Source of the DNA: Roseibacillus sp.
Lineage (GTDB): Bacteria > Verrucomicrobiota > Verrucomicrobiia > Verrucomicrobiales > Akkermansiaceae
Length of the DNA stretch: 39,435 nucleotides
Assembly (NCBI GenBank): GCA_014240355.1
Contig: JAAZXD010000001.1
Coordinates: 1-39,435 of the forward strand
Direction of reading: 5' to 3'
Shown: in pieces, positions 1 through 19,978 of the stretch
Layout of the letters: the number at the start of each line of letters is the position of its first letter
How positions within the stretch are numbered: position 1 is the first letter of the stretch
Translations under genes and position numbers: made by a program
Notes under the pieces: model-generated
The model's database searches: none
The model's input: the letters and a program-made list of their open reading frames with translations, nothing else
What the model was told of the DNA's origin: nothing

Positions 1-33
1 CTCGAGGGGGGAGCTGCCGCAGCCTTGCAGGAA

Positions 34-1446: not shown

Positions 1447-1504
1447 AAATGAGCAGCGTTGTTCCTGCACCCTGATTCGCACTTGCAGAGCGGCATCTGT
1501 AAGA

Positions 1505-1520
1505 CAAGTATTCAAGTATT
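1505..1520. repeat. Perfect 8-bp tandem duplication CAAGTATT x2
   Basis: CAAGTATT occurs twice back to back in the 122-bp gap between the sulfatase and the DUF1549/1553 gene, about 50 bp before the GTG start. It could be an operator half-site pair or chance. A weak promoter-like pair (TTGCAG at 1483, AAGTAT at 1506) overlaps it. No function can be assigned. Confidence 0.3.
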
Positions 1521-1568
1521 CCCTCAGCTTGGATTCCGGTGTCTGAGCGGGCGGTTTTCCCCTGACCT

Positions 1569-4433: not shown

Positions 4434-4439
4434 TCCGCC

Positions 4440-5858
4440 ATGCTCCGACCGATCTGTTCGAGGCCAATGTCCACGCCGGGAACCCGCCGGGAGTTTCTCT
4501 ACGGTCTGGGATCTTCGCTCGGAGCGGTGGCAATGAGCGACCTGCTCGCCAGGGAGGGAGTTGGAGCGGGGCCGTTGGCCCCGAAACCGGCCATGCATGA
4601 ACCGAGGGCCAAGGCCTGTATCATGCTCTTCATGGAAGGCGGCCCCGGGCATATGGACACCTTCGATCCCAAGCCCAGGCTCACCGAGCTGCACAAGAAG
4701 GAATCCAAGCTGACGCGCGGACTGGAAACCGGGTTCAAGTTCTTCGTGGGAAGTCCGTTCAAGTTCCGCAAGGTGGGTCAGTCGGGGATCGAGATGTGCG
4801 ACCAGTGGAAGCATCTGGCTGATCCCGTGGTGGCTGACGAATTGTGCAACTATCGCGGATGCCAGGCGGAGTCGTTGAATCACCCCGAGGCTCTTTTCCA
4901 CATGAACACCGGCAGTCGACTGGGTGCCGACCCAGCCCTGGGGGCGTGGGCCAACTATGGACTGGGGACCCTCAACGAGAATCTGCCCGGGTATGTGGTC
5001 ATGACCGAGTTGGCCATGCCGCAGGGTGGACCAGGAAACTGGAGTAACGGATTCCTGCCTGCCCATTACCAGGGAACACGCTTGCGGCCGGCGGGATCCC
5101 CCATCCTGGATCTCAGTTCCCCGGCCTTCAAGGATCGCAGGCACCTGCGCCGGACCCTCGATGAGCTGGCCTTCCTGAATCAGAAGCATGGCGCAGAGCA
5201 CCCCGGGCACGGGGATCTGGCGGCCCGCATGGAGAGTTACGAACTGGCCTATCGCATGCAGATGACCGTGCCGGAGGTGGTGGACCTGGAGAGCGAATCC
5301 TAGTCCCTCCGGGACATGTACGGGCTGAATGACAAGGAAACCGCTTCCTTCGGACGGCAGTGCCTGATGGCCCGGCGCCTGGTCGAGCAGGGAGTGCGCT
5401 TCGTTCAGATCTTCAGTGGAGGCTGGGACAGCCATGACTACCTTGAGCGTGGTCACACCGCCCGCATCCGCAGCGTGGATAAGCCCATGGCGGCTCTCAT
5501 CAAGGACCTCAAGGCGCGTGGTATGCTCGATGAAACGCTCGTGATATGGACCGGTGAATTCGGCCGTACTCCGGACAACAACAAGCGGGGCGGAGTCTAC
5601 TCGCTTGGGCGCGGCCACAACATCGACGCCATGACCATGCTCCTGGCCGGTGGAGGAGTGAAACCGGGGTCCATGGTCGGGGGAACCGACGAACTGGGAG
5701 CCAGAGCAGTCGACTGCGTGCACCCGATTCGAGACCTGCACGTGACCCTCCTTCATCTCCTTGGCCTGGATGACAACAAGCTCACTTATTTCCATGGCGG
5801 TCGCTACAAGCAGATGAGCCAGTTCGGGGGGAAGGTGATCGACGAGATTCTGGCGTGA
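4440..5858 (+). pseudogene. DUF1501 protein gene interrupted by in-frame TAG
   Basis: Reads as one 472-codon DUF1501 gene with a premature amber codon at 5301-5303 (codon 288). The N-terminal part has a twin-arginine signal (TRREFLYGLGSSLG, residues about 14-27) and the MLFMEGGPGHMDTFDPKP block. Translation after the TAG continues in the same frame with the conserved DUF1501 C-terminal half: MYGLNDKETASFGRQCL, then FVQIFSGGWDSHDY, WTGEFGRTPDNN and the terminal TYFHGGRYKQMS segment. The residues flanking the stop (ESES, stop, SLRDMYGL) fit a sense codon such as GAG, CAG or TGG having become TAG. An ATG at 5316 could allow reinitiation, giving two polypeptides. The gene lies 6 nt after its usual DUF1549/DUF1553 partner. 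A recent pseudogene, readthrough, or a sequencing error are all possible. Confidence 0.85.
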
Positions 5859-5918
5859 TGGGATTGCCAATTCGTGCAGTCCCCCCTATAGAAACCCGCG
5901 TTCAGAGACACCCACCCC

Positions 5919-7112
5919 ATGTTTGAATCCGTAGAACCCGCTCCTCCCGATCCCATCCTGGGGTTGACCGAGGCCTTCAAGGAGGATCCCAGTCCCGGTA
6001 AGATCAACCTTGGCACCGGCATTTATGCTGATGACACCGGGAAGACGCCTACCCTGGAATGCATCAAGGCGGCTGAGAAGGTCGTATCCGAAACGGCGAC
6101 TTCCGGTGGTGGATACCTGCCCATGACCGGTCTGGCGGAGTACAACAGAGACGTGGTGGCCCTTCTCTTCGGAGAGGAAAGTGAGATTCCTGCCTCGGGG
6201 CGCGCCCTGGCGGCCAAGACCCCTGGCGGCACTGGTGGTTTGCGGGTGGCAGCCGACTTCATTGCCCGGATCAAACCGGGAGCACGGATCTGGATGAGTG
6301 ATCCCACCTGGGCCAATCACAACGGGATCTTCACTGCTGCTGGCCTGGAACTGGCAACCTATCCCTACTACAACCATGAGACGAAGGCCCTGAACTTCGA
6401 TGAAATGGTGGCGACCCTGAAGGAGGTGCCGGCTGGGGACGTTGTTCTTTTTCACGCCTGCTGCCACAACCCGTCGGGGATGGATCCCAATGCGGAGCAG
6501 TGGAATCAGCTTGCCGACCTGGCGGCGGAGCGTGGGTTTCTCCCGCTCTTTGACTTTGCCTACCAGGGATTCGGCACGGGGATAGAGGAGGACGCCTTCG
6601 GGCTGCGCGCCTTTGCCGAGAAAGGAATGGAATTACTGGTTGCTTCCAGCTTCTCGAAAAACTTCGGGCTCTATAACCAGCGGACAGGTGCCATGACGGT
6701 GGTGACCAGGACCGCGGAGGCGGCGACGGTTGCCATGAGTCACGTCAAGCTGGCCATTCGAGTCAACTACTCGAATCCGCCCGCCCATGGAGCGCGTCTG
6801 GTGGCTGCCGTACTGGCGGACTCCGATCTGCGGAGGGTATGGGAACAGGACGTGGCCACCATGCGGAATCGCATCAACGGGGTGCGGCAGCAGTTCGTTG
6901 AGACCATGGCGACCAAGACCGACAAGGCCGACTTCTCGTTCGTGGCGACCCAGTGTGGAATGTTCAGCTTTTCCGGGCTGAACAAGGAGCAAGTCCTTGA
7001 GTTGCGTGAGAAGCATTCGATCTACATCGTAGGATCGGGCCGGATCAGCATCGCGGGGATCACCTCCGCGAACCTTGACCCCCTCTGTAGCGCGATTGCG
7101 GCGGTGCTTTAG
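5919..7112 (+). CDS. tyrB: Aromatic amino acid / aspartate aminotransferase (class I)
   Basis: A PLP-dependent class I aminotransferase that would interconvert aromatic amino acids or aspartate and their 2-oxo acids with glutamate/2-oxoglutarate in the cytoplasm. Diagnostic blocks: MFESVEPAPPDPILGLTEAF at the N-terminus, INLGTGIYADDTGKTP, the HNPSGMDP block at about residue 184, LFDFAYQGF, and SFSKNFGLYNQR at about residue 245 carrying the PLP-binding Lys. A terminal Arg-containing substrate-binding segment (GRISIAGI) is present. Length (397 aa) is standard for the AspC/TyrB family. The start is the ATG at 5919; no clear Shine-Dalgarno sequence precedes it. It stands apart from the DUF genes upstream (60-nt gap) and is followed by a hairpin. 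The family is certain; tyrB versus aspC specificity cannot be decided from sequence alone. Confidence 0.88.
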   Translation: MFESVEPAPPDPILGLTEAFKEDPSPGKINLGTGIYADDTGKTPTLECIKAAEKVVSETATSGGGYLPMTGLAEYNRDVVALLFGEESEIPASGRALAAKTPGGTGGLRVAADFIARIKPGARIWMSDPTWANHNGIFTAAGLELATYPYYNHETKALNFDEMVATLKEVPAGDVVLFHACCHNPSGMDPNAEQWNQLADLAAERGFLPLFDFAYQGFGTGIEEDAFGLRAFAEKGMELLVASSFSKNFGLYNQRTGAMTVVTRTAEAATVAMSHVKLAIRVNYSNPPAHGARLVAAVLADSDLRRVWEQDVATMRNRINGVRQQFVETMATKTDKADFSFVATQCGMFSFSGLNKEQVLELREKHSIYIVGSGRISIAGITSANLDPLCSAIAAVL

Positions 7113-7168
7113 GAGCGCCAACTCATGACCGACGAGCCGTTCGTGCTCCACTGGCTACGGTGGTGTGT

Positions 7169-7191
7169 TTCACCGGTTTCAACCGGGTGAA
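7169..7191 (+). terminator. Hairpin after the aminotransferase gene
   Basis: TTCACCGGTT and AACCGGGTGAA form an inverted repeat with one bulged G, 57 nt after the aminotransferase stop. There is no T-tract, so it is at best an atypical terminator or an mRNA 3'-end hairpin. It precedes the sulfatase relic. Confidence 0.3.
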
Positions 7192-7242
7192 TGAGGAGAA
7201 ATTGGGTTGTCGCTTTTGTCATTCCGGGAAAGGGTCGAGGTA

Positions 7243-7590
7243 ATGCGCTGGATCGGGACGTTTTTTCTGCTGGTTCTGGGCGCCGCGGTGCTGGCCCGGG
7301 AAGGGGACTCCCAGCCAAACGTCCTCTTCATTGTGGTGGACGACCTGAATGACTGGACCACGGTTTATGATCCGGACAATCCGATCAAGGCCCCGAACCT
7401 AACATTTCAACTGGCCCCAAAAGGGTGTCCCGATCAGGGCCGTAACGAGAACGATCCCGACGATTGGCACAACCTGGCGGCAGATCCCAAGCCCGAACAC
7501 GAACAGGTGATGGCGGGCCTGCGAAAGTGGTTTCCGGCCCGGGAGGCTCCGCAGGTTGCCGACATGCTGTCGAGCAGGGAGCAGGAGTAG
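7243..7590 (+). pseudogene. Sulfatase relic with internal deletion (N- and C-terminal ends only)
   Basis: A 115-codon open frame that joins the two ends of a sulfatase. The start ATG at 7243 follows GAAAGGG with good spacing and begins a signal peptide (MRWIGTFFLLVLGAAVLA). The first sulfatase block follows (PNVLFIVVDDLNDW, with the DD metal ligands), then the strand ending IKAPNL. The reading then jumps, after about 15 residues of unrelated sequence, to a typical sulfatase C-terminus (NENDPDDWHNLAADPK, then VMAGLRKWFP). The roughly 350-400 central residues, including the CxPSR/CxASR catalytic signature and the second metal site, are missing, so it cannot be an active sulfatase. The N-terminal DDLNDW pattern resembles iduronate-2-sulfatase-like family members. 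It lies 51 nt before the sialidase start and may have been its operon partner. Confidence 0.75.
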
Positions 7591-7641
7591 CGGGCGGGGT
7601 GGTTGATTGCACCGGGTCCCCGGGTTAGTAAGTTGGTCGAG

Positions 7642-8802
7642 ATGGGAACGAGACATGCATGCTGGGTGGTCACCCTGCTTCTGGCCGGAACCTTCCTTCC
7701 TGCCGCCCAGGCGGAAGACGAGGTTCTGCGGAAGGACATTTTCAGTCGCAAGACGGATGGCTACCACACCTACCGTATTCCCACCATGGTGGTGACTGGC
7801 AAGGGGACCATTCTGGTTTTCGTTGAGGGGCGCAAGACGCACCGGCGGGATCATGGTGACGTCGATCTCCTTATGAAGCGCAGTGAGGATGAGGGCCGGA
7901 GCTGGTCGAAGCAGACCCTCATTCATGAAGAGGGAGGGGAGGCCCTGATCCGGGTGGGTAATCCATGTCCTATCGTGGAAAAGGACGGCAAGACCGTGCA
8001 CCTGCTCTTTACCCGGAATGGGCCGGACTGCCTCTTCTACACCAGAAGCACGGACGATGGTAACAGCTGGGAGCCCTTCGTAAGGGTCTCCGATGATCCC
8101 AAGGCGCCGGAGTACAGGAAGGGAAACTTCCTGGCAGACTTCGGCGGGTCGCCGGTCGGTGTGGGGGCGGGCCCGGTGCACGGGATCCATACCAGCAAGG
8201 GCCGCCTCATTGCTCCGTCCTATGTCGGGCACAAGGTGGATGGCGAAGGGCGGGGGCAGTCCTGCATCATTTATTCCGACGATGGAGGGAAGAGCTGGCA
8301 GGCCGGGGGTGTCGTCCCCTGGGTGCCGGAGTTCCGGCATGGAGAGTGTACCATCGTGGAGCGTCGGGACGGATCGCTCCTCATGAACATGCGAACCTCG
8401 GCTCCGGGGGTTTACTCCTTTGGATACCGGCTCACCTCGGTGAGTGCGGACCACGGGATGACCTGGTCCAAGCCGGTGGTGGACAAGAATTTGCCCTGTC
8501 CCGCCTGTCAGGCGAGCATGATCAGGCTGAACGGGAAGGAGATGCTCTTTCTCAATCCCGCTGTAAACCATCACGGAGGATTTTCGATCTGGAGCCGCAA
8601 GAAACTGACCCTGCGTCTCAGCCGTGACGAGGGCAGGAGCTGGGAGGCGAGTCGGGTCCTTAACGAGGGATTGGCCGGCTACTCTGATCTCGCCATCGCG
8701 AAAAACGGCAACATCCTCTGTCTCTTCGAGAACGGGGAGCGGGACTACTGCGAGAAGATCACCATCGCCGAACTCAAGCCGTCCTGGCTGACCCGGGAAT
8801 AG
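7642..8802 (+). CDS. Exported sialidase (GH33-like exo-alpha-sialidase)
   Basis: A six-bladed beta-propeller sialidase that would release terminal sialic acids from glycoconjugates. The ATG at 7642 starts a signal peptide ending AAQA at about residue 24; the frame is open further upstream, but an earlier start would spoil the signal. The RIP motif (YRIP, Arg45) is followed by VFVEGR and RDHGDVDL. Five Asp boxes are visible: SEDEGRSW (81-88), STDDGNSW (136-143), SDDGGKSW (212-219), SADHGMTW (268-275) and SRDEGRSW (327-334). Candidate catalytic residues are Glu235 (HGECTIVE), Arg251 (NMR) and Tyr347 (GYSDL), which together with Arg45 and Asp70 fit the family pattern. The length of 386 aa fits a single catalytic domain without a lectin module. 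It sits directly after a sulfatase relic, suggesting a glycan-degradation operon. Confidence 0.92.
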   Translation: MGTRHACWVVTLLLAGTFLPAAQAEDEVLRKDIFSRKTDGYHTYRIPTMVVTGKGTILVFVEGRKTHRRDHGDVDLLMKRSEDEGRSWSKQTLIHEEGGEALIRVGNPCPIVEKDGKTVHLLFTRNGPDCLFYTRSTDDGNSWEPFVRVSDDPKAPEYRKGNFLADFGGSPVGVGAGPVHGIHTSKGRLIAPSYVGHKVDGEGRGQSCIIYSDDGGKSWQAGGVVPWVPEFRHGECTIVERRDGSLLMNMRTSAPGVYSFGYRLTSVSADHGMTWSKPVVDKNLPCPACQASMIRLNGKEMLFLNPAVNHHGGFSIWSRKKLTLRLSRDEGRSWEASRVLNEGLAGYSDLAIAKNGNILCLFENGERDYCEKITIAELKPSWLTRE

Positions 8803-8881
8803 AGCCTGGTGATCCTGTAAACGGGCGGAAGGGTCGGTTTTGGGTTGCGTCGGCGGTGGTTGCCTGCGCGAATGAGACACT

Positions 8882-10462
8882 ATGAAAGTCCACTTTGCTC
8901 TTTGCCTGGGAGGAGTTCTGCTGATTGGTCCTGGCGTCTTTGTGCAGGCAGCGGTTTCGGACTGGCAGGCTGCGGCCGCATCCCAGTCGAACCTGATGCA
9001 CCACTACAGCTTCGATGGGAGCACCGATCAGGAGCGGATGAACGACAAGAAAGGGGTGGCCCATCTTGCCGCCCGGATTTTCGGAAGTGGGACCATCGAT
9101 CAGCTGCAGCTTGGCACAGCGGGTTTTGACCCTTCTTCAGAGGCCGTGCGGACGCACCGGGGTCCGGGAACTGATAATGCCGAAGGAGCCTACCTGCGCA
9201 CCGAGTCGGTCACTCTGGGACGGACGGTTTCCTTCGAAACTCTTTTTTCACCGACTGACCCGGAAATCACGGGAGGTCAGTGGAACCTGGGCTACATCCT
9301 GTCCACCCGGGTCGGGAACGATCGTGGTTATTTCCTCACTCAGGGTGGCCCGCTTCCGAGCACGGGCATGAAGATCAGGAGCACGATCGGGAATTCGCAC
9401 AGCGATCCAAACACCAATACGGTGCTGGAGAGTTTCACCGTGGGCAACTGGTATTACGTGGCGGGCTCCTACACGACGGGTGCGGGAAACGTGACCTGGA
9501 CGAACTACGTTGCGGATCTCACGGCGGGGGAAACCTCGCTCACCCCCATCGGTCCTTTCACCAACTCGGGAGGGCTCTTCCCCCAGAGTTCCACTCCCCT
9601 TGGGATCGGTGGTCGCTGGGATGGCCAGGAGTCCTTTTCGGGATTCATCGATGAAGTGATGTTCTACAACGAGGCCCTGCCCGTGGGTGTTTTCCAGAAG
9701 CACCTGGCCCTTCTTGCCGGCGCAGGGGTGGAGCTGGAGGTTGCGGCGGTGGGAGGTGACCTGGCCCTGAAATGGGACAGCAAGGTGGGAAAACGGTATA
9801 ATCTCCGTAGTTCGGTCGACCTCACCGGCGACCCGGCCACCTGGCCCGTCTTCAGTGGCTTTGAGAACCTGGAGGCCACCCCGGATGAGAACACCCTCAC
9901 CTTTGCCCGGCCGGCAGACCCCGAACGCTACTTCGTGATCGAGGAATTCCAGCCTCCGCCGGTGGTAGTGTATTCCACCGATTTTGAGGAGGGCGCGGTG
10001 GGCTGGACGACGCTGGTTAATGATGTAAATGCCAATACGAGTTGGGAACTGGGAACCCCTGCCGGGACTACCGGGCCTCTGGCGGGCGCTGCAGATTCGG
10101 CCAATGCCTGGTCCACCAACCTGGGTGATTACGGTCCGGATTCCGATATCTCCCTCCGTTCACCGGCCATCGATTTGAGCGGGGTTCCGGAGGCCGGGTT
10201 GTCCTTCGAGGCCTACCGCGATGCGGACGGCTTTGGTGATGCGGCGGGGGTCCGTTTCCTGAGAGCGTCCGACCTGGTGCAGTTGGGGGCAGAGGTGCCG
10301 ATCGACATGGATGCCTTCGATAACGGTTGGAGGACCATCCGGGTCTCCATCGTGCCGGAGGCGATCGGAGAGACTGTTCTGATCGAGTGGAATTTCACCA
10401 GCGATGATACCCCGGACAGCTTCAGCGGCCTGTCGATTGATGATGTCCGGGTGAGTGACTGA
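8882..10462 (+). CDS. Secreted LamG (concanavalin A-like) domain protein
   Basis: A 526-aa secreted protein of unknown target. A signal peptide ends near residue 23 (FVQAA). Residues about 38-275 form a LamG/concanavalin-A-like lectin fold: HHYSFDGS at its start, GNWYYVAGSY in the middle, and FSGFIDEVMFYNEALP as its typical last strands. Residues about 285-355 contain a short module with LKWDSKVGKRYNLRSS that also occurs in the giant DUF1800 protein of this window. The remainder (about 360-526) is a second beta-sandwich beginning YSTDFEEGAVGWT and ending SFSGLSIDDVRVSD, of the jelly-roll kind often used for carbohydrate binding. There is no C-terminal sorting motif. It follows the sialidase by 79 nt on the same strand and may be a binding protein for the same glycans (inference). 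Confidence 0.75.
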   Translation: MKVHFALCLGGVLLIGPGVFVQAAVSDWQAAAASQSNLMHHYSFDGSTDQERMNDKKGVAHLAARIFGSGTIDQLQLGTAGFDPSSEAVRTHRGPGTDNAEGAYLRTESVTLGRTVSFETLFSPTDPEITGGQWNLGYILSTRVGNDRGYFLTQGGPLPSTGMKIRSTIGNSHSDPNTNTVLESFTVGNWYYVAGSYTTGAGNVTWTNYVADLTAGETSLTPIGPFTNSGGLFPQSSTPLGIGGRWDGQESFSGFIDEVMFYNEALPVGVFQKHLALLAGAGVELEVAAVGGDLALKWDSKVGKRYNLRSSVDLTGDPATWPVFSGFENLEATPDENTLTFARPADPERYFVIEEFQPPPVVVYSTDFEEGAVGWTTLVNDVNANTSWELGTPAGTTGPLAGAADSANAWSTNLGDYGPDSDISLRSPAIDLSGVPEAGLSFEAYRDADGFGDAAGVRFLRASDLVQLGAEVPIDMDAFDNGWRTIRVSIVPEAIGETVLIEWNFTSDDTPDSFSGLSIDDVRVSD

Positions 10463-10536
10463 GTCTTCCCTGTGACTGGAGCGGTTGTCGCGATGGAAAC
10501 GTCGTCTGAAGGGAGGCACTTCCTCATCCGGCAGAG

Positions 10537-11211
10537 CTAAGAGTTCTCCCGGGCGAGTTCCGGCTCCTCCAGGGTGATGTCATCATTCGTTCCGAAGGCG
10601 CCATCGGGTCCGGCAGAGGAAAACTCCATGTGGGAGCCGGAAATGGGATGGAAGCGGAAGGGCGTGCCCCAGCGGTCGAGAAGTTCGTTGCCTGCGCTGA
10701 GGGCAGGGTGAGCGGGGTCGAGGAATATCAACCGGTGGGGGTTCCTGCCCGTCAGGGCAGCGACCACTTCCCGGTTTTCTCCTGCTACCGGGTTCTGATG
10801 AAATATCAGACGATAGGATTCAATGGTCCTGCGGAGCAGTCCGAGATCGGACTCGGTCTCCTGTCCTTCCTCGTTGAGGGCATCCAGCATTTCCATCACA
10901 TCCTTCTTGTGGATGGTGCCATTGCCCTGCCGTTCGAAGGGTGGCGCGCCGAAAGCGAGAGGAAGGGGTGCGGGGTCGAGGGCGTGCGGGTTGCTCTTGA
11001 GTTCCTCGATGGAAGGAGGACTGTAATGGGATCCCGGGGCCGGGGAGATCATTGCAGGAGTCTGTTCTGCATTTTCATGGTGGGCTTTCCCCGTGACGGT
11101 GCGTGCTTCGTGATCGGGTGACCCCGGCCCGAGGGTGAAAAAGAGGACAGCCGTGAGCATCACGGCGGCGAGGAGAAGAAGACAGGTGCTGTTCCGCGCC
11201 GAAGGTTTCAT
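10537..11211 (-). CDS. Membrane-anchored protein with GspG-like (T2SSG) C-terminus
   Basis: A 224-aa protein with one N-terminal hydrophobic segment (about residues 10-28, LLLLAAVMLTAVLFFTLGP). A Pro-rich linker follows, then a C-terminal segment reading DRWGTPFRFHPISGSHMEF and SAGPDGAFGTNDDITL. That last block matches the calcium-binding end of type II secretion major pseudopilins (WGxPYxY, then SxGxDGxxGTxDDI). The prepilin cleavage motif and long N-terminal helix of a true pseudopilin are not present, so only the C-terminal half is shared. The start is set at 11211 because its ATG overlaps the TGA of the upstream DUF1501 gene by one base (TGATG), which implies translational coupling. It is the last gene of the DUF1800-DUF1501 operon. 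Its function is unknown; a surface or secretion-linked role is inferred. Confidence 0.75.
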   Translation of the reverse strand: MKPSARNSTCLLLLAAVMLTAVLFFTLGPGSPDHEARTVTGKAHHENAEQTPAMISPAPGSHYSPPSIEELKSNPHALDPAPLPLAFGAPPFERQGNGTIHKKDVMEMLDALNEEGQETESDLGLLRRTIESYRLIFHQNPVAGENREVVAALTGRNPHRLIFLDPAHPALSAGNELLDRWGTPFRFHPISGSHMEFSSAGPDGAFGTNDDITLEEPELARENS

Positions 11212-12929
11212 CAGATTCCGTTGAGATAATCCATGTGAGGATTGGACAGCATGCTGTTGTAATTGGCAGGATTGTAAGTGCTTCCGAAGGGTGAGGTGAA
11301 ACGATCGAGATTGGGGAAGATCGTTGCGATTTCGGGATCGCCTACGCCCATCCACCTGGCAAGGGGAGCACTGAATTGCTCCACCGAGCAGGTCGGAATC
11401 CAGCGTCCGCGACTACTCCCCGGCGTGCTCCACTCCCCGGCGGGGTCGAGATCGGGATAGTAGCCGTAGACATTGCCGCCCTTGACGTCGCCACCCATGG
11501 TGAAGACGTGCGTGCCCCAGGCGTGATCTGATCCGGCGGGCCCGGGAATGGTGCCGTTCGGCGTCAGGGTGCGGTTGAAATCGGAATGGGAAGCGAGGAG
11601 GAAGTCGTTGTAGGAAAAGGCATCGTCCTGTCCGGTCTCGTAAATTTCGAGTTCGTGCATGCAGTCGTTGAAAGCCTTGAGGGCGTCATTAAGCACGGTC
11701 ATGTTGTCGTCGAGATCGCCGGCTACATAGCCATTGCCGGTGCTGTAGCCACCCTGGTCCCCGTGGGTGTCGTGCCCTCCGTAGCTGCAGAAGAAGAGTT
11801 GGCGCCTGTTGCCGAGGCAGCGCCGTCCGGCCATGAGTTGCGCGATCTTGAGGAGCTGCCGGGCGAGGTTGGGCAGGATGTTCAGGGCGTTATTGCTGCT
11901 GCTGTTAACGGTTGCGGGATCGATCCCGTGCTGGATGAGGAAGGTGGCCGGGATGTAGGGCCAGGCCGCCCCCCGGCTGTCCACCGCAGTGGGATGGAGC
12001 CATGCGCCGGCCTCCTCAAGGGAGGCGCTGACGTAGCCTTCATTCTCGCGCGCCTGGCGGACCACATTGGTATAGCCTTCCTCAAAGAGGTGGGCGTGGG
12101 TGTAGTCCATGATATCCTGGAAGGCCTTGAGGCGCTTGGCGGAGGTATTTGACTTGTAGCTGTGTTTGTCCTGGGAGTTCCGCAGGGCACTGGAATACTG
12201 GGTGCCGTAGCCGTTGAGGCTGATGGCACCCGATTTGGTCACGGAGTATTGAGGGGAGACCTGGGTGAGGCCGGCCTGGATGTCGTTGATGCCCGAGAGG
12301 GAGACCGACATGGAGATCTCGCTGTCCGTGTTCCGGGGGTGGAGGATGTCTGCGATGCGTCCACACCAGCCACTCTGGAAGGGTTTGTCGGGGAGGGAGC
12401 TCTGCCATTGGTTCTGCTGGTCGCTGTGGGAGAAGAGCTGGGGAGGAAGAGCCACCGTGTCGTAAGTGGAAGCCTTGGTGGGAACAACCAGGGTGCCCAC
12501 GTTGGCGGCGAGGGAGAGATCGCCATCGTCGAAGAGAGTCTTGACGTCGGGAAGGGCCGGATGGAGTTCAAAGAACTCCGCGCCCACCGGAGCGGATCGC
12601 GCTGTCGCAAGATTGGCCGCCACAATGGGGTGGGTGGGATTGTTTCCCCCGGTGGGCAGGGCCAGCACCCCGCGGTGTGCGTCATAGTTGGACCGGCCCG
12701 GATGCAGCAGACCGGGCATGAGGAAGTTATTGGCGTCCTTGGCCCCGAAGAGAAAGAGGACCACGAGGGCCTTGTAGTCTCCCAGGGATCCGGAACTGTT
12801 GGCCAGCGCGCCCTGCATCAGCTTCATGTGCGCGAGGGTATTGACCATCCCGGTCAGGCCCATCGCGGAACAGGCCGACTTGGCCATGAAGGCGCGGCGG
12901 GTCAGGGGCAGTTTCTTTTTCGGATTCAT
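11211..12929 (-). CDS. DUF1501 protein, Tat-exported
   Basis: A 572-aa DUF1501 family protein. A twin-arginine signal is visible (TRRAFMAKSACSAMG, residues about 10-24), so it is probably exported folded and may bind a metal or cofactor. Conserved blocks follow: LVVLFLFGAKDANNFLMP, FELHPALPDVKTLFDDG, the FFCSYGGHDTHGDQ segment near residue 385, FLLASHSDFNRTLTPN near residue 445 and SDHAWGTHVFTMGGDVKGG near residue 470. The distribution of His and Asp residues recalls alkaline-phosphatase-like hydrolases, to which DUF1501 has been related; no activity is assigned. It starts 19 nt after the DUF1800 gene and overlaps the next gene by one base. DUF1800-DUF1501 pairs are a recurrent arrangement in many bacteria. 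Confidence 0.9.
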   Translation of the reverse strand: MNPKKKLPLTRRAFMAKSACSAMGLTGMVNTLAHMKLMQGALANSSGSLGDYKALVVLFLFGAKDANNFLMPGLLHPGRSNYDAHRGVLALPTGGNNPTHPIVAANLATARSAPVGAEFFELHPALPDVKTLFDDGDLSLAANVGTLVVPTKASTYDTVALPPQLFSHSDQQNQWQSSLPDKPFQSGWCGRIADILHPRNTDSEISMSVSLSGINDIQAGLTQVSPQYSVTKSGAISLNGYGTQYSSALRNSQDKHSYKSNTSAKRLKAFQDIMDYTHAHLFEEGYTNVVRQARENEGYVSASLEEAGAWLHPTAVDSRGAAWPYIPATFLIQHGIDPATVNSSSNNALNILPNLARQLLKIAQLMAGRRCLGNRRQLFFCSYGGHDTHGDQGGYSTGNGYVAGDLDDNMTVLNDALKAFNDCMHELEIYETGQDDAFSYNDFLLASHSDFNRTLTPNGTIPGPAGSDHAWGTHVFTMGGDVKGGNVYGYYPDLDPAGEWSTPGSSRGRWIPTCSVEQFSAPLARWMGVGDPEIATIFPNLDRFTSPFGSTYNPANYNSMLSNPHMDYLNGI

Positions 12930-12948
12930 GGAGCTCTTCGTGCGGGGG

Positions 12949-15900
12949 TTACTTCTGGATCAGGTATTCCGGACTGGTAGCCATGAGGTAGAGTGCGTTC
13001 CGGACCTTGCTCCAGATCTGGTTGTCGTCATTGGCGCTCCAGGTATCGCGCAGGTAGTAGAGAAGCGTTTCGCGGGGATTGCGACCCGGGTAGTGAGTGA
13101 GGGACCCCTGCGGCACAGGTATGCCGTCATCACCGGGATCGATCGGGTAGAGGATTTTGAAGCGGCCTGCCAGCAGGAGGTTGTCGAGGTCATCTATCAA
13201 TTGAAGGTCGATCTCCTGTTCGTCATCCATGGGGTTCTCGGGATCGATCCGATAGTTCCGGTAGCGATTGATCCAGGCGTAGTAGTCCGGGATGATGTTG
13301 TCGTCGGTATAGGTGGTTGATCCGTTATTGTATTGTCGCTGCGTCCCGTAACCGGCGAGGGCCGAGTTGGTGTTGTTTCCGCCCACGTTGGTGGCACTCC
13401 ACCCGTTGCCGTTGTAATGCGATTGCCAGTAAACATTGATGTTCTGTAAGGCACTGCTCTCGGTTACGATCTGAAATTCGGGGGCCACTTTGCCATAGCT
13501 CGCGATGAGGCCGCCGGGTTTGTAGCCGGGGAGGAACCAGTTAAAGACAGAGGGCGCCCTGAGGGGCACTTGCCCGAGGGCGGTGGTGCCTCCGTTGTCG
13601 AGATTCTGGAGGCGGTAGGAAGTGCCGGGCAGGCGGGCGAACGTCCCGGGACCGGTCGGAACCAACCGACCGGTGGCATCATGTTTCACCATGCCCTCGA
13701 ACTTGGTGAGGGAGGCTGCCGGGAAATCGAAGTTTTGCAGGTCGGCGTCGCGGGTCGGGGTCAGGGAGCCGATATGGGCCTGGAGGGGCAGGAGGATCGG
13801 GTCGCCCGGAATCACGCTTCCGTCCAAGGTGATCCGTGATCGTCCTCCCACCGCGCGCAGGGCCTGGATCCAGGCGATGATGGGTTCCTTCTTGCGGCCG
13901 TATTCCGGATGGAGTTCGGATATGCTCAGGTTGCGTGCTTCAGGGTCCAGCAGGATGGCCCGCACCACGTCATCGAGTTGGCCGTTGGTGTTCCGCCAGG
14001 TCTGGGCCACCCGGTAGAGATAAGGGCCGGAGGGGTTGCTGGTGATCAGTCGCTGGATGAGCCGGTAGGCAATGAAGACCGGGGTGGTCTGGTGATTAAC
14101 CATGGGGTCCCTTGACCAGGTCGGAGCGAAGGACTTGGATGTGGTGTTGAGTTGGGTGCCAGCCAGCAGGTTGTGGACGTCTCGCAGGTCCTTGTCCCCC
14201 TCGTTCCGGTAGCGGCCGTTTGACCTGCCGTTGTTGCTGATGACTACGCCTCCCACGATGGTCTTGTTCCCCCTGTCATGCCGGTTCTCGTAGAAGGCCA
14301 TGGGGTAGTTGTAGCGGGAGGAATACCAGCTGTTGCCGGGAGAATCGTCGTGCCAACCGGATGGCGGGTTGTCGGAGTTGAGATTAGGTGAGTTCCAGTT
14401 GTCCGCGCTGGCGCTGTTGGTGCTCCAGCTCATGCCGGTCATGACGCGGGCGAGTTCCTTGATATCGTTGTTGTCGTAGGTCGGGATCAGGTTGAACTGG
14501 ACCGGATCCAGTTTGACAAAACCGTCGTCCCAGAGTTCGAAAAGCCCGATGGTGAAAAGCTGCATGATCTCGCGGGCGTAGTTCTCGTCAGGCGGCACTC
14601 CGGACGAGCCCTCGCTGCTGTTCTGGAGGTGGCTGAGATACTTGCCCATCACAGGCGAGTAGGTGACATCCTCGATCAGTTCGCGAAAGTGGTCGTCGGC
14701 GTTCTCGGCCAGCATGTCGGCCCACCGGGCCATGCCGATGTGATGATTGCGTATTTCGGCAAGATTTCCCGAGACGACCGTGATTTCGGAGAGGGCGAAT
14801 CCCACCCGTTGTCGCAGTTGATCCCGTGCGTTGGCCATGATCGTCCACTGGGCGCGGCGCCGGTTGTTGTAGTTCGGGCTTCCCAGGATGTTATCGAGGG
14901 CATTCTCCTGGGCGCCGGTCAGGGGGAAGCTGGCGTCGGGAGCCTGCCAGGTGCGGGGATTGAGAGAGTCGAACCGGGAGATGTCCTGGGAGGGCCAGTT
15001 GGGCCAGTTTGCAGGTGATACCGGTGGGGGATCAGCCGCACCGTTACGGGAGGAATCAAAGTAGCCGCGCCACGTGAATTCCTGCATGTCCATGGCATGA
15101 GTGAGATCGCGGACCAATGTCTGGGGAAGGGACCACTGGGCGGTAAGCCAGGCGTCGTAGGCTGCCATGCGGTCTCCGCCATGGGTCTGAATCACTTCGT
15201 AAAGCAGTTCCTCGATATCGGCCTCGGTGGGGCCAAAGGTGGCCTGGGTCAGGAAGCGGGTGACCTCACGCCGGAGCTTGTCCGCTTCCGTGACGGGGTT
15301 GATTGGTTCAATGGGGGGAGTGGCCGGAATCCTGTCTCCGTCCTCCGGGGAGAGTTCGGAAGCCGGTCGCCGCTGGTAAATGGCCCAGATCTCGCCCCCT
15401 CCGTTGTTGGCCGTGTGCTTGTTGTCGTAGAGTGGCGTAGTGCCTGCAGGGGCCTCCTGCTTGGGATTATCATACTCCAGTGAGTCAATGATGTCCTGCA
15501 CCGAGAAGGCTCCGCGCGGCTCGATGCGATAGGTGTAGTTACTGACCGGACCCATGAGCGGGGTGCCGTTCTCGCTACCGTCCTCCGTGATGGATTCCAC
15601 CACTGGTCCCGAGGTGAAGGTGATCCCCGCCAGGGAGGCCTTGTGGATGTGGGTGTTGGTCTGGTTTGAACTGAGGTTCTCAAAGTAGTCGTTGATGATG
15701 GCCACCGTATTGCTGCCATTCAGGACGAGGAGGGTGGATCCGGTTGCGCTGGTGGGCATGCGGGCCGCGGGATCTTTGGCAAAACTTCCGATGTAGTATT
15801 TGTTGAATTCCGGGTCGTCGCGGGCGTCTACCAGGTCGACGGTCCCCTGGGAGGGGGTGCCCACCACGTAATTGATCCCGGGGGTGTCGAGCACGAGGTT

Positions 15901-17493
15901 GAGTTCCTCGGGGTATTCCACGATCTCATCGAGAAGAGGGCGCAGTTCGATGACCGCCTCCGTGCTCCCGAAGGGGAGGGCCGCCATGTAAGCCCCGTTG
16001 TCGGGATCCCTGGTCAACCGGGTGCCGTCGGGCAGTTCGACCACGTAATCGCGGTTGCCGGGCACGCCCTTGCTCTGGGGATCAGCCGGTCCGTTGAGGA
16101 AGAAGACGATATTCTTCGGGGCAAGGGAGCCGCTTCGTTTGAGGAGAACCCGGGCCACGTTTTTCACACGGGGAGTGCCTCCCGCAATGGTGCCATTGTT
16201 CTCGAGGCCGGTAGCATCCGTTACTTCCACCGTGAGGACATCGGCCGGTGGGAAGGCCTGGCCGGAAGCGGTGAGGGATTCGCCGTCGGAAGTGTCCGCC
16301 CGGGCGCTCTGCGGCCGGAAGAACTGGTAGCCGTCGAGAGCATTCTCAATTTCATCCGCCACGTGGTCACCATCGGCGTCGAGGGCTTGGGCGCTCAGAG
16401 GCCCGAAGGTCTTCACTCGGACGAACTTGCGGTTGCCGCGGGCGAGGAGGACAGCGACATTGTTGTCAGTGTAATCCTCGTTCTCCACGAAATCGCCGAC
16501 CGGTTCCAGACAGTCACCGGGGACCACCGCGATGGTCCCGTTCCTGCCGAATTTCCAGCCCACCGCGAGGTGATCCCACTGGGCGTTGTGATTGTGGTAG
16601 ATTTCGAAATAATAGCGCTGACCGGCCGTGAGCCAGAGGTCGGCGGATTTCTGCGTGTCGGTCACGCCGAGGGAGGCGAGATAGTCCCAGTCTTCCTCCT
16701 CGGTGAGATCCTGATTGTGCAGCCAGCAGCGTCGCTGCAGGCCAATGCCGTCGGAGGGATTTCCGCTGGCATCGAGCCAGAACTCGCACTGGTGCCGACC
16801 CGCGATGTAGAAGTTATGAATTCCGGTGCGCTTCGGAACAATGAACCCGCGCCACCGGGTTCCGTAATTGTCACCGTAGTTGGTCGGTCCCTTCAGGCTG
16901 TCGCGCCATTCGATCCCGTCAGCGGGAGTTTCCGCCGCGTCGGGGCCTGGACTGAGGTGCCTGCGCAGGGCGCCGATTGATCCATTCGACTCGCCGTGGT
17001 GCCAGACCTCGCGGGTGACGCCGCCCCGTACTGCCGGAGTGTCGGGGTCGGAGAAATCCACCGTGAGTCGGCCACCCGTTCCGAACCAGTTGAGGGCGGT
17101 GGTGCCGGCGGCATTGCTGACCGGTTTCCAGGTTTGCAGGTCATCTGAGAGTTCGATCTGGTAGCGTTTGCCTGGCTTCGTGTCCCAGGTGATGGAGAGT
17201 TCTCCGGGCTTGAGGATTGTCCTGGCGAACGTGAGGCAGTCTACCCGATCGTTGGGATCGGTGCCGTCCTGACTTTCCTTGAGATTGGTGCAGGTGTCTC
17301 CATCGGGATCGAGATTCGCGGCTCCATCCGGGTGGTTGAGCGCTCCGAAATGTTGGATTTCCCATGAATCGATGAGGCCATCGGAATCGGAGTCCAGATT
17401 CACTGCCTGGCCACAGAGTTGGACGGGAAGAAGCACGGCGACGGCGGGAACGGCGATGTTCTGCCGGAAACGAAGGAGAGAAAGCATCTTCAT
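12949..17493 (-). CDS. Giant secreted DUF1800 protein with PA14 and Calx-beta-like regions
   Basis: A 1514-aa secreted multidomain protein. From the ATG at 17493: a Sec signal (about 1-30); an Asp-rich Ca-binding segment (about 30-80) with DSDSDGLIDSWE and DPDGDTCTN; a short module with ITWDTKPGKRYQIELS (about 95-150); and a PA14-like domain (about 160-325) including LTAGQRYYFEIYHNHNAQWD. A second DADGDHVADEIEN Ca-site lies near 370, a Calx-beta-like segment near 470-560, a beta-rich region with THIHKAS near 620-700, and DUF1800 from about 735 to the end. DUF1800 blocks include FLTQATFGPTEADI, RQRVGFALSEI, PVMGKYLSHLQN, NYAREIMQLFTIGLFEL and TYDNNDIKELARVMTG. A TTG at 17511 also opens the frame, but it coincides with the predicted transcript start, so I use the ATG. 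Probably a surface protein working with the downstream DUF1501 protein; its activity is unknown. Confidence 0.88.
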   Translation of the reverse strand: MKMLSLLRFRQNIAVPAVAVLLPVQLCGQAVNLDSDSDGLIDSWEIQHFGALNHPDGAANLDPDGDTCTNLKESQDGTDPNDRVDCLTFARTILKPGELSITWDTKPGKRYQIELSDDLQTWKPVSNAAGTTALNWFGTGGRLTVDFSDPDTPAVRGGVTREVWHHGESNGSIGALRRHLSPGPDAAETPADGIEWRDSLKGPTNYGDNYGTRWRGFIVPKRTGIHNFYIAGRHQCEFWLDASGNPSDGIGLQRRCWLHNQDLTEEEDWDYLASLGVTDTQKSADLWLTAGQRYYFEIYHNHNAQWDHLAVGWKFGRNGTIAVVPGDCLEPVGDFVENEDYTDNNVAVLLARGNRKFVRVKTFGPLSAQALDADGDHVADEIENALDGYQFFRPQSARADTSDGESLTASGQAFPPADVLTVEVTDATGLENNGTIAGGTPRVKNVARVLLKRSGSLAPKNIVFFLNGPADPQSKGVPGNRDYVVELPDGTRLTRDPDNGAYMAALPFGSTEAVIELRPLLDEIVEYPEELNLVLDTPGINYVVGTPSQGTVDLVDARDDPEFNKYYIGSFAKDPAARMPTSATGSTLLVLNGSNTVAIINDYFENLSSNQTNTHIHKASLAGITFTSGPVVESITEDGSENGTPLMGPVSNYTYRIEPRGAFSVQDIIDSLEYDNPKQEAPAGTTPLYDNKHTANNGGGEIWAIYQRRPASELSPEDGDRIPATPPIEPINPVTEADKLRREVTRFLTQATFGPTEADIEELLYEVIQTHGGDRMAAYDAWLTAQWSLPQTLVRDLTHAMDMQEFTWRGYFDSSRNGAADPPPVSPANWPNWPSQDISRFDSLNPRTWQAPDASFPLTGAQENALDNILGSPNYNNRRRAQWTIMANARDQLRQRVGFALSEITVVSGNLAEIRNHHIGMARWADMLAENADDHFRELIEDVTYSPVMGKYLSHLQNSSEGSSGVPPDENYAREIMQLFTIGLFELWDDGFVKLDPVQFNLIPTYDNNDIKELARVMTGMSWSTNSASADNWNSPNLNSDNPPSGWHDDSPGNSWYSSRYNYPMAFYENRHDRGNKTIVGGVVISNNGRSNGRYRNEGDKDLRDVHNLLAGTQLNTTSKSFAPTWSRDPMVNHQTTPVFIAYRLIQRLITSNPSGPYLYRVAQTWRNTNGQLDDVVRAILLDPEARNLSISELHPEYGRKKEPIIAWIQALRAVGGRSRITLDGSVIPGDPILLPLQAHIGSLTPTRDADLQNFDFPAASLTKFEGMVKHDATGRLVPTGPGTFARLPGTSYRLQNLDNGGTTALGQVPLRAPSVFNWFLPGYKPGGLIASYGKVAPEFQIVTESSALQNINVYWQSHYNGNGWSATNVGGNNTNSALAGYGTQRQYNNGSTTYTDDNIIPDYYAWINRYRNYRIDPENPMDDEQEIDLQLIDDLDNLLLAGRFKILYPIDPGDDGIPVPQGSLTHYPGRNPRETLLYYLRDTWSANDDNQIWSKVRNALYLMATSPEYLIQK

Positions 17494-17517
17494 CAGGGAA
17501 AAATCCAACACGGTTCT

Positions 17518-17546
17518 ATATTACGCGCTCACAGGCCACTACTCAA
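17518..17546 (-). promoter_or_regulatory. Sigma70-type promoter of the DUF1800-DUF1501 operon
   Basis: On the - strand a -35 box TTGAGT (17546-17541) and a -10 box TAATAT (17523-17518) are separated by exactly 17 bp. Transcription would start near 17511, leaving a short leader of about 18 nt before the ATG at 17493. A 7-bp inverted repeat (GTATGAA at 17548-17554, TTCATAC at 17586-17592) lies immediately upstream and could be an activator or repressor site. The promoter is a pattern match only. Confidence 0.5.
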
Positions 17547-17680
17547 TGTATGAAACGTGTCAGCGTTACCCGATTGAGGGTCTGGTTCATACTGTGGAAC
17601 GACGCATTGTTTCCGGGTGGCGTTACAACCTGGGAGTTTAAAGTCGCGATTTCAGAGAGGAGAATCACCGCTATGAGGGA

Positions 17681-19978
17681 TCACGGGATTGACGGATCGG
17701 AGGAGGGACCAGCAAGGAGGCGCCTGGCTTCTTCAAGGAGTCTGCCAGCGTGGTTGAATGGTTCGTGGCCGATGTCGCTCCACAGGATCCGGCCCTGCGG
17801 GCCGATGAGAAAGGTGCCGTGCATGGGGCCTTCCTCGAAGTCGTCAAAGACGTGGTAGTTCCTGAAGGCCTCAAGGCTGGGATCCGCGAGGATGGGGAAG
17901 GGGAAGGTTTTGCGGGCTTCCACCGTCTTTTCCTCGGTTTTCCCCAGTCGCAGGGTGAGGGTTTTCACGTTGTCGCTGCTGATGGCGATCATCTCGATAC
18001 CCGCCTTTCGGTAATCCGCCAGAGCGGGGCGGAATGTTTCGAGTTGGCTGAGACAGAAGGGACAGCTGACCCCGAGGAAGAAGTTCAGGAGAACCGCTCT
18101 GCCCTTGAAGTCGGCGAGGGCCACCGGGCGTCCGGTGTGATTGGGGAGGGTCCAGGCCGGAGCAGGTGGAGGAGACCACTGCGCCGGTCCCAGGCTGTCA
18201 GGATCTTCGGGAAGACTGCTCTCCTCCAGATTTCCAGGAGGCAGAGTCCAGCGCGTGGGGAGTCCAAGGGTGGTCGCGACCTTGTCGAGGGCGGGGAAAC
18301 TGCGGTGGGCCTTGTCGGCCCGCAGGACGTCCTGGCGGAAGCTGCGATCGAAGGCTCTGGTGGCCGCAACGCGGTTTCCATTCTTAAAGCTGGTGGAGCA
18401 GTAGAGGGCGGTGGCGAAGAGGCCACGGGGGTTCTGTTCGAGATGATCGCGGGCCACCTGGAGTGCGATCCCGGGCTTTTTCAGTTTTTGCCAGGCCGCG
18501 GAATGGATGCCGGCAGGGAGATGGGGCGGGGAATGAGGTCCGCCGGGATCCTCCCGACTGCTGAGGGCATGGAAGTAGGTCAATCCGTCGGCCCAGGCTC
18601 CGATCAACGAGTCATTCTCGTAGCGCCTGGCCATCTTTGCCAGGGACAGCGCAATGGATCTGGCTTCATCCGGGCGTTCAAGGGAGCAGAGAGCAAGACC
18701 GGTCCAGTAGTTGGCCTGGGCCGCTTCCTGTGGAGAGCGGGACGTGGAGGTAAACCGGGGATCATTGCGGAAGAGATGGATGACATGTTCTGATTTTCCG
18801 GCCTGCATTGCGGCCTGCGCGTGGAGACGGCGGCCGAGGAGCAGGAGATCGGATGATGTCCTGTTGATTCCTTCCACGGTCAGGCTGCGGGGCAGGCTGA
18901 GGAGAGCGTCCGCAATCTCAAGCGCTTCCTGCAGTCGGCCCATTGAAACAAGCATGTCGCCGAGGGCGGCGTAATTTGAGGAGAGATTCTCTGCCGCCGG
19001 AGGCATGAGGAGGTGCTTGCGCATCTCGCGGTGGTGGACGCGGAGGGCACACTGGGACAGGGCAATGGCCTCATGTTGCCGGCCGTCGGCCCGCCATCCT
19101 TCCGCCGCGAAGCGCCATGAATCAGCAAGACCCGGGGCGGTGCTGGCGCTGGATCTGGCGTGCGCGCGGGCCTGGGCAGGTTGTTCGCGCAGCCAGAGGA
19201 ATACGCGGTAGTGAGCGCCGGGGTGACGGGGGGAGAGAGTGGTGAGTTCGTGCGCGAGGCGGTCAACGGCCAGGTGGCTGGTGAGTTCGATGCCGGAGCG
19301 GTGGAGATCGAGGACGAGTTGGCGCAGGAGAAAGGCTTTTGCTTCCACGTCGTGGGGATAGGCAAGGGCAAGGTTCTCAAGGTCGTGAATGCGCTGTCGA
19401 TGTCGCGCGCGATTCTGCTCCCCGGTCTGATCAGGAGGTGGCGGAGCCTTGACCGGGTTGTCGCGTTTGAGGTTGTAGAAGTTGGCAAGGACATGAATCC
19501 AGAGACGTTCGCGCGGAGTGGTGGAGTTGCCGGTCCGGCGCAGCGCAGTGTGGGCAAAGAGTCGGGCCCGGCCCGGTCGCTGTTCATTGGCGACTGCGAG
19601 GCCCCAGAAGATCATGGGGTTGCGGGGATCGGAGAGGAGGGCCTGCCGGAAAGAGCGCTCGGCCTCGCCATGGGCCTGACCGTGGATCCAGGCCACTCCC
19701 TGGTTGAACCAGCGCTGGGCTTCCTTGGAGGTGGTGGTGATGGGGAAACTGACCACCCCAATGTCATCGCGGAGAACCGGGGCACGCCAGGGGCCGTGTA
19801 GAAAGGCGAGGTTGACGGTGGCCGGGGCTTCCGGGTCGACCTGTTTGAGAAGGGGAGCGAGGCAGGGGAGCTTGAAGTTGCGGTAGGTTGTGGCGTTACC
19901 ACCGGGGCTCAGGGCCAGCAGGGCCAATGCAGGAGCGATGGCCATCCTGAATCGTGAACCATGGCACCAGCAGGACAT
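17681..19978 (-). CDS. TPR protein fused to a C-terminal redoxin (AhpC/TSA-like) domain
   Basis: A 765-aa exported protein. The N-terminus (MSCWCHGSRFR, then MAIAPALALLALSPGGNA) looks like a signal peptide; an internal ATG at 19945 could be the true start. Residues about 75-600 are a helical repeat region with TPR-like pairs (for example RWFNQGVAWIHGQAHGEAER and WGLAVANEQRPGRARLF). Residues about 610-755 form a thioredoxin-fold redoxin: WTLPNHTGRPVALADFKG, then LLNFFLGVSCPFCLSQLE with a CPFC pair at 639-642, IAISSDNVKTL, and MHGTFLIGPQGRILW. CPFC resembles a thioredoxin-like CxxC, so a periplasmic thiol reductase/oxidase or peroxiredoxin role is likely, with the repeats as a docking platform. 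It precedes the DUF1800 operon on the same strand but is separated by 187 nt containing a promoter. No partner is known. Confidence 0.8.
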   Translation of the reverse strand: MSCWCHGSRFRMAIAPALALLALSPGGNATTYRNFKLPCLAPLLKQVDPEAPATVNLAFLHGPWRAPVLRDDIGVVSFPITTTSKEAQRWFNQGVAWIHGQAHGEAERSFRQALLSDPRNPMIFWGLAVANEQRPGRARLFAHTALRRTGNSTTPRERLWIHVLANFYNLKRDNPVKAPPPPDQTGEQNRARHRQRIHDLENLALAYPHDVEAKAFLLRQLVLDLHRSGIELTSHLAVDRLAHELTTLSPRHPGAHYRVFLWLREQPAQARAHARSSASTAPGLADSWRFAAEGWRADGRQHEAIALSQCALRVHHREMRKHLLMPPAAENLSSNYAALGDMLVSMGRLQEALEIADALLSLPRSLTVEGINRTSSDLLLLGRRLHAQAAMQAGKSEHVIHLFRNDPRFTSTSRSPQEAAQANYWTGLALCSLERPDEARSIALSLAKMARRYENDSLIGAWADGLTYFHALSSREDPGGPHSPPHLPAGIHSAAWQKLKKPGIALQVARDHLEQNPRGLFATALYCSTSFKNGNRVAATRAFDRSFRQDVLRADKAHRSFPALDKVATTLGLPTRWTLPPGNLEESSLPEDPDSLGPAQWSPPPAPAWTLPNHTGRPVALADFKGRAVLLNFFLGVSCPFCLSQLETFRPALADYRKAGIEMIAISSDNVKTLTLRLGKTEEKTVEARKTFPFPILADPSLEAFRNYHVFDDFEEGPMHGTFLIGPQGRILWSDIGHEPFNHAGRLLEEARRLLAGPSSDPSIP

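Follow-up and report, generated by a model that had tools for sequence, protein, structure and literature searches.

We analysed a 39,435-nucleotide stretch of DNA (the window) from Roseibacillus sp., of the Akkermansiaceae in the Verrucomicrobiota (contig JAAZXD010000001.1 of assembly GCA_014240355.1, a draft of 675 contigs that is 87% complete). On its reverse strand, the window carries three tightly linked genes that encode a DUF1800 protein, a DUF1501 protein, and a membrane-anchored protein with a GspG-type head, referred to here as the third protein (Table 1). The layout described in an earlier note on this DNA agreed with the checked coordinates: a 1514-residue DUF1800 protein, a DUF1501 gene 19 nt later, and a third gene that overlaps by one base, its start codon sharing this base with the DUF1501 stop codon (TGATG). 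The DUF1800 and DUF1501 genes are adjacent on the same strand, and both products exceed the curated Pfam cut-offs, with 194.3 bits against 26.1 for DUF1800 and 52.5 bits against 27 for DUF1501. Among named records, those closest to the third protein came from Verrucomicrobiales UBA8567 (94%) and Akkermansiaceae UBA7890 (87%).

Two kinds of export signal are present, an N-terminal signal sequence on the DUF1800 protein and a twin-arginine translocation (Tat) signal on the DUF1501 protein, together with a single hydrophobic anchor on the third protein. The Tat export assigned to DUF1501 at the outset is consistent with its TRRAFM motif, and a twin-arginine-like motif was found in 89 of the 91 related DUF1501 proteins described below; because of this signal, the protein is probably exported in a folded state. 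The three genes had also been called promoter-led, a description that we could not reproduce. A promoter scan of positions 10300-17800 placed no site ahead of the start of DUF1800, and the three promoter-like sites in that region were no clear excess over shuffled sequences (1.6 +/- 1.2).

Table 1. Genes and features of the DUF1800-DUF1501-third gene locus in the window
Feature	Position	Strand	Details
DUF1800 protein gene	12949..17493	-	1514 aa; PF08811 E 5e-57; C-terminal DUF1800 domain
N-terminal signal sequence of DUF1800 protein			judged by eye
PA14 module of DUF1800 protein	16771..16932	-	residues 188-241; PF07691 E 7.5e-6, above cut-off
DUF1800 core	12952..15258	-	residues 746-1514
Intergenic gap DUF1800/DUF1501	12930..12948	-	19 nt
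DUF1501 protein gene	11211..12929	-	572 aa, Tat signal; PF07394 E 6e-14
Twin-arginine motif TRRAFM of DUF1501	12885..12902	-	residues 10-15; from sequence
Third protein gene	10537..11211	-	224 aa; N-terminal membrane anchor, linker, GspG-type head
Hydrophobic anchor helix of third protein	11134..11196	-	residues 6-26; without prepilin processing motif
Calcium-type loop of third protein	10576..10617	-	residues 199-212; invariant G201, D203, D210, D211

Conservation and co-inheritance of the three genes

When the third protein was searched against 97 genomes of the window's family, 59 of them had matches, at 120 places including the window. Surroundings were examined for 118 of the 120 third-gene places and the window; one place at a contig edge (G095:C42) was left out, and locus L139 yielded no open reading frame (ORF) at the threshold. 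Both a DUF1501 gene (within 600 nt) and a DUF1800 gene (within 4.5 kb) lay upstream on the same strand for 90 of the 118 third-gene ORFs, while three had DUF1800 only, two had DUF1501 only, and 23 had neither. With an 800-nt limit, 91 cassettes, each with DUF1800, DUF1501, and the third gene in this order, were counted in 51 of the 97 genomes, with one to four paralogous cassettes in each carrying genome. The third gene begins at or before the end of DUF1501 in 34 of these cassettes and within 30 nt of it in 42 more, with start codons set by rule. Some of the 23 partnerless ORFs had low scores and probably encode pilin-like proteins of other kinds, and at least two are at contig ends. Of the 15 orphan third genes scoring above 90 bits, some likewise lie at contig ends or in cassettes cut by them, one has a DUF1800 gene on the opposite strand, and the others are partnerless within the stretch examined.

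The arrangement extends beyond the family. A profile search of the phylum with the third protein matched 59 of 288 genomes (E <= 1e-6), 30 of them at about 100 bits or more. A DUF1501 gene lies directly upstream at the best locus in 25 of these 30, and the 25 loci span nine family codes, of which three belong to classes other than the window's. Genes flanking the cassettes were not generally conserved, apart from an exopolysaccharide clade, scattered sulfatases, and close relatives, and no recurring secretion genes were found beside the 91 family loci. Directly upstream of the window's cassette is a gene for a protein with TPR and AhpC/TSA-redoxin domains (17681-19978, reverse strand), which is likewise upstream in loci L034 and L047.

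The three genes have also diverged together. In a distance analysis that covered 83 of the 91 cassettes and dropped those that were short, masked, or cut, pairwise distances correlated at 0.77 between the third protein and DUF1501, 0.74 between the third protein and DUF1800, and 0.86 between DUF1501 and DUF1800. When partners were swapped within genomes, none of 2000 permutations reached correlations as high as those observed, and paralogous cassettes therefore keep their own third gene. The family cassettes, the phylum loci, and this co-divergence under within-genome swaps led us to reject a reading of the genes as chance neighbours. Thus, the survey for the three genes in order across Verrucomicrobiota, which the earlier note had proposed, found a co-inherited unit, and as judged from gene order and divergence the three genes are a conserved unit.

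In a tree of 128 DUF1501 proteins, 93 sequences with and 18 without a third gene formed one group with a local support of 100. Outside this cassette subfamily fell 17 "classic" DUF1501 proteins from short DUF1800-DUF1501 pairs, a label set by DUF1800 length and score before tree building; none of the 17 has a third gene. The tree was built with FastTree, which warned of long branches, and three fragments (L153, L179, and L181) were left out of it. The presence and absence of the third gene imply 9 or 10 state changes on this tree, and the simplest reading, based on these proteins, would be that the gene was gained once, at the subfamily's base, and lost several times. No hidden pseudopilin was seen downstream of pairs lacking the third gene. 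Among 42 DUF1800 loci without a third-gene match that were examined, two proved to carry one; because the DUF1800 loci without a third gene were drawn from among the matches listed, the share of pairs without it is not unbiased.

Relatives of the subfamily were also present on four plasmid stretches from Pseudomonadota and Acidobacteriota, which hold five DUF1501 genes matching the subfamily profile, all without a third gene; the placement of these plasmid rows in a further FastTree tree, also with long-branch warnings, is unsure. The plasmids (L272-L275) belong to Agarilytica, Vibrio, Sphingomonas, and Acidisarcina and carry DUF1800-DUF1501 pairs, which in Vibrio maritimus are followed by a glycoside hydrolase family 19 gene. 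The third protein itself had no match in the plasmid search. Since subfamily DUF1501 genes occur on plasmids of other phyla without it, the third gene may have been added within Verrucomicrobiota. The view that the third member stands outside the usual DUF1800-DUF1501 pair agrees with its absence from all 17 classic rows and all four plasmid stretches. Within the subfamily, the third gene was neither mostly absent nor scattered, being present in 93 of 111 rows of a sample that is not unbiased, with 91 of 118 family copies in a cassette; in the wider DUF1800-DUF1501 family, however, most classic members lack it, so the concern that it might be missing from most such loci held there.

The third protein

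An AlphaFold2 model of the third protein had a predicted local distance difference test (pLDDT) score of 85. Its best alignments in the Protein Data Bank (PDB) were 3g20, 3gn9, 4lw9, 3fu1, 5o2y, 2kep, and 9a1f; these seven rows head the list, with Z from 7.4 down to 4.6, and are all G pseudopilins of the type II secretion system (T2SS). The alignment with 3g20 covered 94 residues with a Z of 7.4 and a root-mean-square deviation of 3.8. A Z below 8 is modest alone, but the uniform list and a PDB profile match to 3g20 (E 0.0014) back a GspG fold. In Pfam, the T2SSG score of the window's protein was 18.7 bits (E 0.0019), below the curated cut-off of 21, and the GspG-type C-terminus noticed earlier is therefore upheld by the fold rather than by this match alone. 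Six residues are invariant among 60 aligned third proteins, including the loop residues G201, D203, D210, and D211, and the loop aspartates align with those of 3g20. Calcium binding is noted to stabilise T2SS pseudopilins in the accessible part of PMC5131608, citing Korotkov 2009. The alignment of third proteins (A1), together with A2, A3, and A4, covers 60, 40, 41, and 31 of the 91 cassettes, respectively.

The third protein thus shares with GspG (3g20, PulG, EpsG, XcpT) the head fold, the head helix, and the calcium-loop aspartates. It differs in its N-terminus, which is a plain anchor instead of a processed prepilin sequence, and in being encoded with DUF1501 and DUF1800, outside any gsp operon. 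A hydrophobic N-terminal stretch was found in 87 of the 91 third proteins. The strict prepilin motif, a cleavage site with Glu5, was found in none of them and a loose pattern in one, yet the same family of genomes has pseudopilin-like proteins with the strict (L150) or loose (L147) motif. Because the processing motif is absent, we rejected the third protein as a true pseudopilin; as predicted from its sequence and model, it is a membrane-anchored GspG head and not a pilus subunit. An ordinary pseudopilin or a minor pilin, belonging to a type II or type IV system and located here by chance, would agree with the T2SSG match and the fold, but with the strict motif missing from all 91 proteins, and given the cassette order and co-divergence, we consider this extremely improbable. 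Three further loci (L145, L146, and L148) encode GspG-head proteins whose N-terminus is a plain hydrophobic stretch, and have no adjacent DUF1501 gene; L145 has a DUF1800 gene just upstream.

A different use of the head would be as a type II secretion adaptor that docks on the apparatus in the place of a pseudopilin and hands over the DUF1800 protein, with DUF1501, for export to the surface. The retained fold and calcium loop are compatible with such a role, as is the nature of the partner, a large exported multidomain protein, and three T2SSF-type proteins and a single match to prepilin peptidase were found in the source genome. However, the helix that joins the filament and the processing site are absent, no secretion genes recur beside the cassettes, and 18 subfamily relatives and the 17 classic rows manage without a third gene. 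We therefore regard the adaptor as unlikely. The type II secretion-linked export suggested in the earlier note is weakened in the same way, as it retains the GspG fold in its favour but has lost the N-terminus needed for processing and assembly.

The DUF1800 and DUF1501 partners

Beyond their C-terminal core, the cassette DUF1800 proteins carry surface modules. Among 31 of these proteins (E <= 0.001), we found TSP3 in 18, CHRD in 18, and PA14 in 12, with GLEYA (6), Calx-beta (3), H-type lectin (2), and LamG (Laminin_G; 2) being rarer; lectin-like modules are thus part of the set. For the window's own protein, the PA14 module claimed at the outset was recovered above its cut-off, whereas Calx-beta was absent in Pfam at E <= 1 and the TSP3 calcium repeats were below cut-off (E 0.7); both are found in relatives, as counted above. 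An AlphaFold2 model of the DUF1800 core was mostly helical with a mean pLDDT of 78. When compared with 37 PDB chains it gave no match at Z >= 2, and a sequence comparison of the core with the PDB gave chance-level matches only.

Six residues of DUF1501 (D65, H168, D387, H389, D468, and H469) are invariant among 41 aligned cassette proteins, as would be expected of a metal site. DUF1501 had no PDB sequence match. In hhalign comparisons with sulfatase profiles, a weak alignment near the "SDNG" motif reached 37% for the classic proteins, 15.7% for a mixed set, and 7.3% for the cassette subfamily, with controls below 1%. DUF1501 belongs to the alkaline phosphatase clan of Pfam. The source genome has 58 DUF1501 and 43 PSD1 matches and a single DUF1800 gene, and the cassette DUF1501 is among its weakest Pfam DUF1501 matches (28.9 bits, compared with up to 531).

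A rival reading is an adhesion or envelope-organisation complex, in which the DUF1800 protein would be a surface adhesin, DUF1501 a folding or anchoring partner, and the head a tether, with no enzyme step on polysaccharide. The frequency of TSP3, CHRD, and PA14 modules fits this picture, as does the preferential occurrence of the DUF1501 module in compartmentalised Planctomycetes-Verrucomicrobia-Chlamydiae (PVC) bacteria reported in the accessible parts of PMC4960237 and PMC4452313. The invariant Asp and His residues of DUF1501 and the exopolysaccharide operon setting described below argue against it, making it a rather improbable account of the cassette.

Two kinds of known DUF1501 pair resemble the cassette. 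DUF1800-DUF1501 pairs in Dickeya, Pectobacterium, Brenneria, and Agrobacterium vitis comprise the same families, adjacent and co-oriented, with a Tat-type DUF1501 and a position near polysaccharide synthesis genes, and no GspG-head gene is mentioned for the chitin synthase-linked pairs in the accessible part of PMC5122149. The cassette DUF1800 proteins are mostly longer and carry surface modules, and the cassette DUF1501 subfamily forms a group apart from the 17 classic rows, which come from the same family of genomes. In PSCyt2-PSD1 (DUF1549-DUF1553) pairs of Planctomycetes and Verrucomicrobia, DUF1501 is also next to a larger partner, but this partner has a cytochrome-type domain, the window's example has a sulfatase next door, and there is no GspG head. 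PSCyt genes beside two families of unknown genes are described in the accessible part of PMC5615132.

A pair of this second type is located in the window at 1569-5858. The region at 25-10462 contains, in a row, genes for a sulfatase, a PSCyt1-PSCyt2-PSD1 protein (1569-4433), and a second DUF1501 protein (4440-5858, forward strand), followed by genes for an aminotransferase, a BNR sialidase-like protein, and a LamG protein. The second DUF1501 gene has an in-frame TAG near 5301 and is either a broken gene or an assembly error. Comparison of the DUF1800 and PSCyt2-PSD1 families by hhalign gave 85% for classic DUF1800, 38.7% for the combined set, and 0.4% for the cassette subfamily alone, with controls below 1%, and one comparison of the classic proteins reached E 6e-6. 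Classic DUF1800 and PSCyt2-PSD1 therefore appear, from these profiles, to be distantly homologous; if this is true, DUF1501 proteins would share one common type of partner.

Polysaccharide setting and proposed role

In four genomes (G086, G031, G065, and G095), genes for an exosortase and EpsI directly follow the cassette. The order is GT4 glycosyltransferase, DUF1800, DUF1501, third gene, exosortase, and EpsI in the first three, which further downstream also encode a sugar transferase for exopolysaccharide and a Wzy_C protein, while the G095 contig ends within DUF1800. Exopolysaccharide genes are some 4 kb from the cassette in G094, and a sugar transferase and a Wzy_C protein adjoin it on the other strand in G040. 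Together with two loci that have the pair and an exosortase but no third gene (G049 and G095:C48), these make eight loci, all of which fall within a single sub-clade of the DUF1501 tree that has 11 rows and a support of 98. The cassette is thus inside an exosortase/EpsI exopolysaccharide operon in one clade, whereas most cassettes, including the window's, have no such genes in the examined stretches. In Pseudomonadota, DUF1800-DUF1501 pairs are reported to occur together with chitin synthase genes (PMC5122149). These two distinct settings point to polysaccharides, and the "polymer binding" proposed earlier gains support from the operons and from the lectin-like modules of the DUF1800 proteins.

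We tentatively favour, as the best single account, one envelope complex of the three proteins that acts on surface polysaccharide. DUF1501 would be a metal-dependent enzyme of the alkaline phosphatase or sulfatase type and would act on a phosphate, sulfate, or similar group carried by a polysaccharide at the surface or outside the cell. The DUF1800 protein would be its partner and hold the glycan through lectin-like modules, while the GspG-head protein would serve as a calcium-stabilised inner-membrane anchor that keeps the complex at the exit site of the polymer. The cassette is built into an exopolysaccharide-exosortase operon in one lineage, and elsewhere it stands alone. For the window's own cassette, a polysaccharide role is suggested by these relatives.

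Several observations weigh against this envelope complex. The link of DUF1501 to the sulfatase and alkaline phosphatase fold is weak, at 37% in hhalign at best, and 18 of the 111 subfamily rows lack the third gene. Two loci, in G049 and at G095:C48, have the pair and an exosortase without it, and the third gene is therefore not indispensable in the exopolysaccharide clade. Exopolysaccharide genes accompany just 6 of the 91 cassettes within the examined stretches, all in one clade. The window's cassette has no adjacent exosortase gene, and the single exosortase match of its genome is on another contig (C233).

A fuller evolutionary version of the envelope complex is possible, although we hold it to be doubtful. 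In this version, a pseudopilin head was lifted from the type II secretion filament onto a fixed anchor and became a dedicated third subunit alongside DUF1800 and DUF1501 in a glycan-handling complex. In some lineages this complex would be a built-in station of an exopolysaccharide-exosortase export line, and across Verrucomicrobiota a genome would have as many as four paralogous copies of it. The DUF1800-DUF1501 pair is already known and named, and in these comparisons the third member appears to be the new part; no published description of it was found in a literature search that covered few subscription papers.

DUF1501 is highly repeated in these bacteria, and both DUF1501 and DUF1800 are without known function. 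Because the third partner has a fold that can be recognised, keeps its place in the gene order, and in one lineage occurs in an exopolysaccharide operon, it leads to testable predictions about the site of the complex, its tether, and its polymer. It would also represent a part of a secretion filament reused without its assembly signal.

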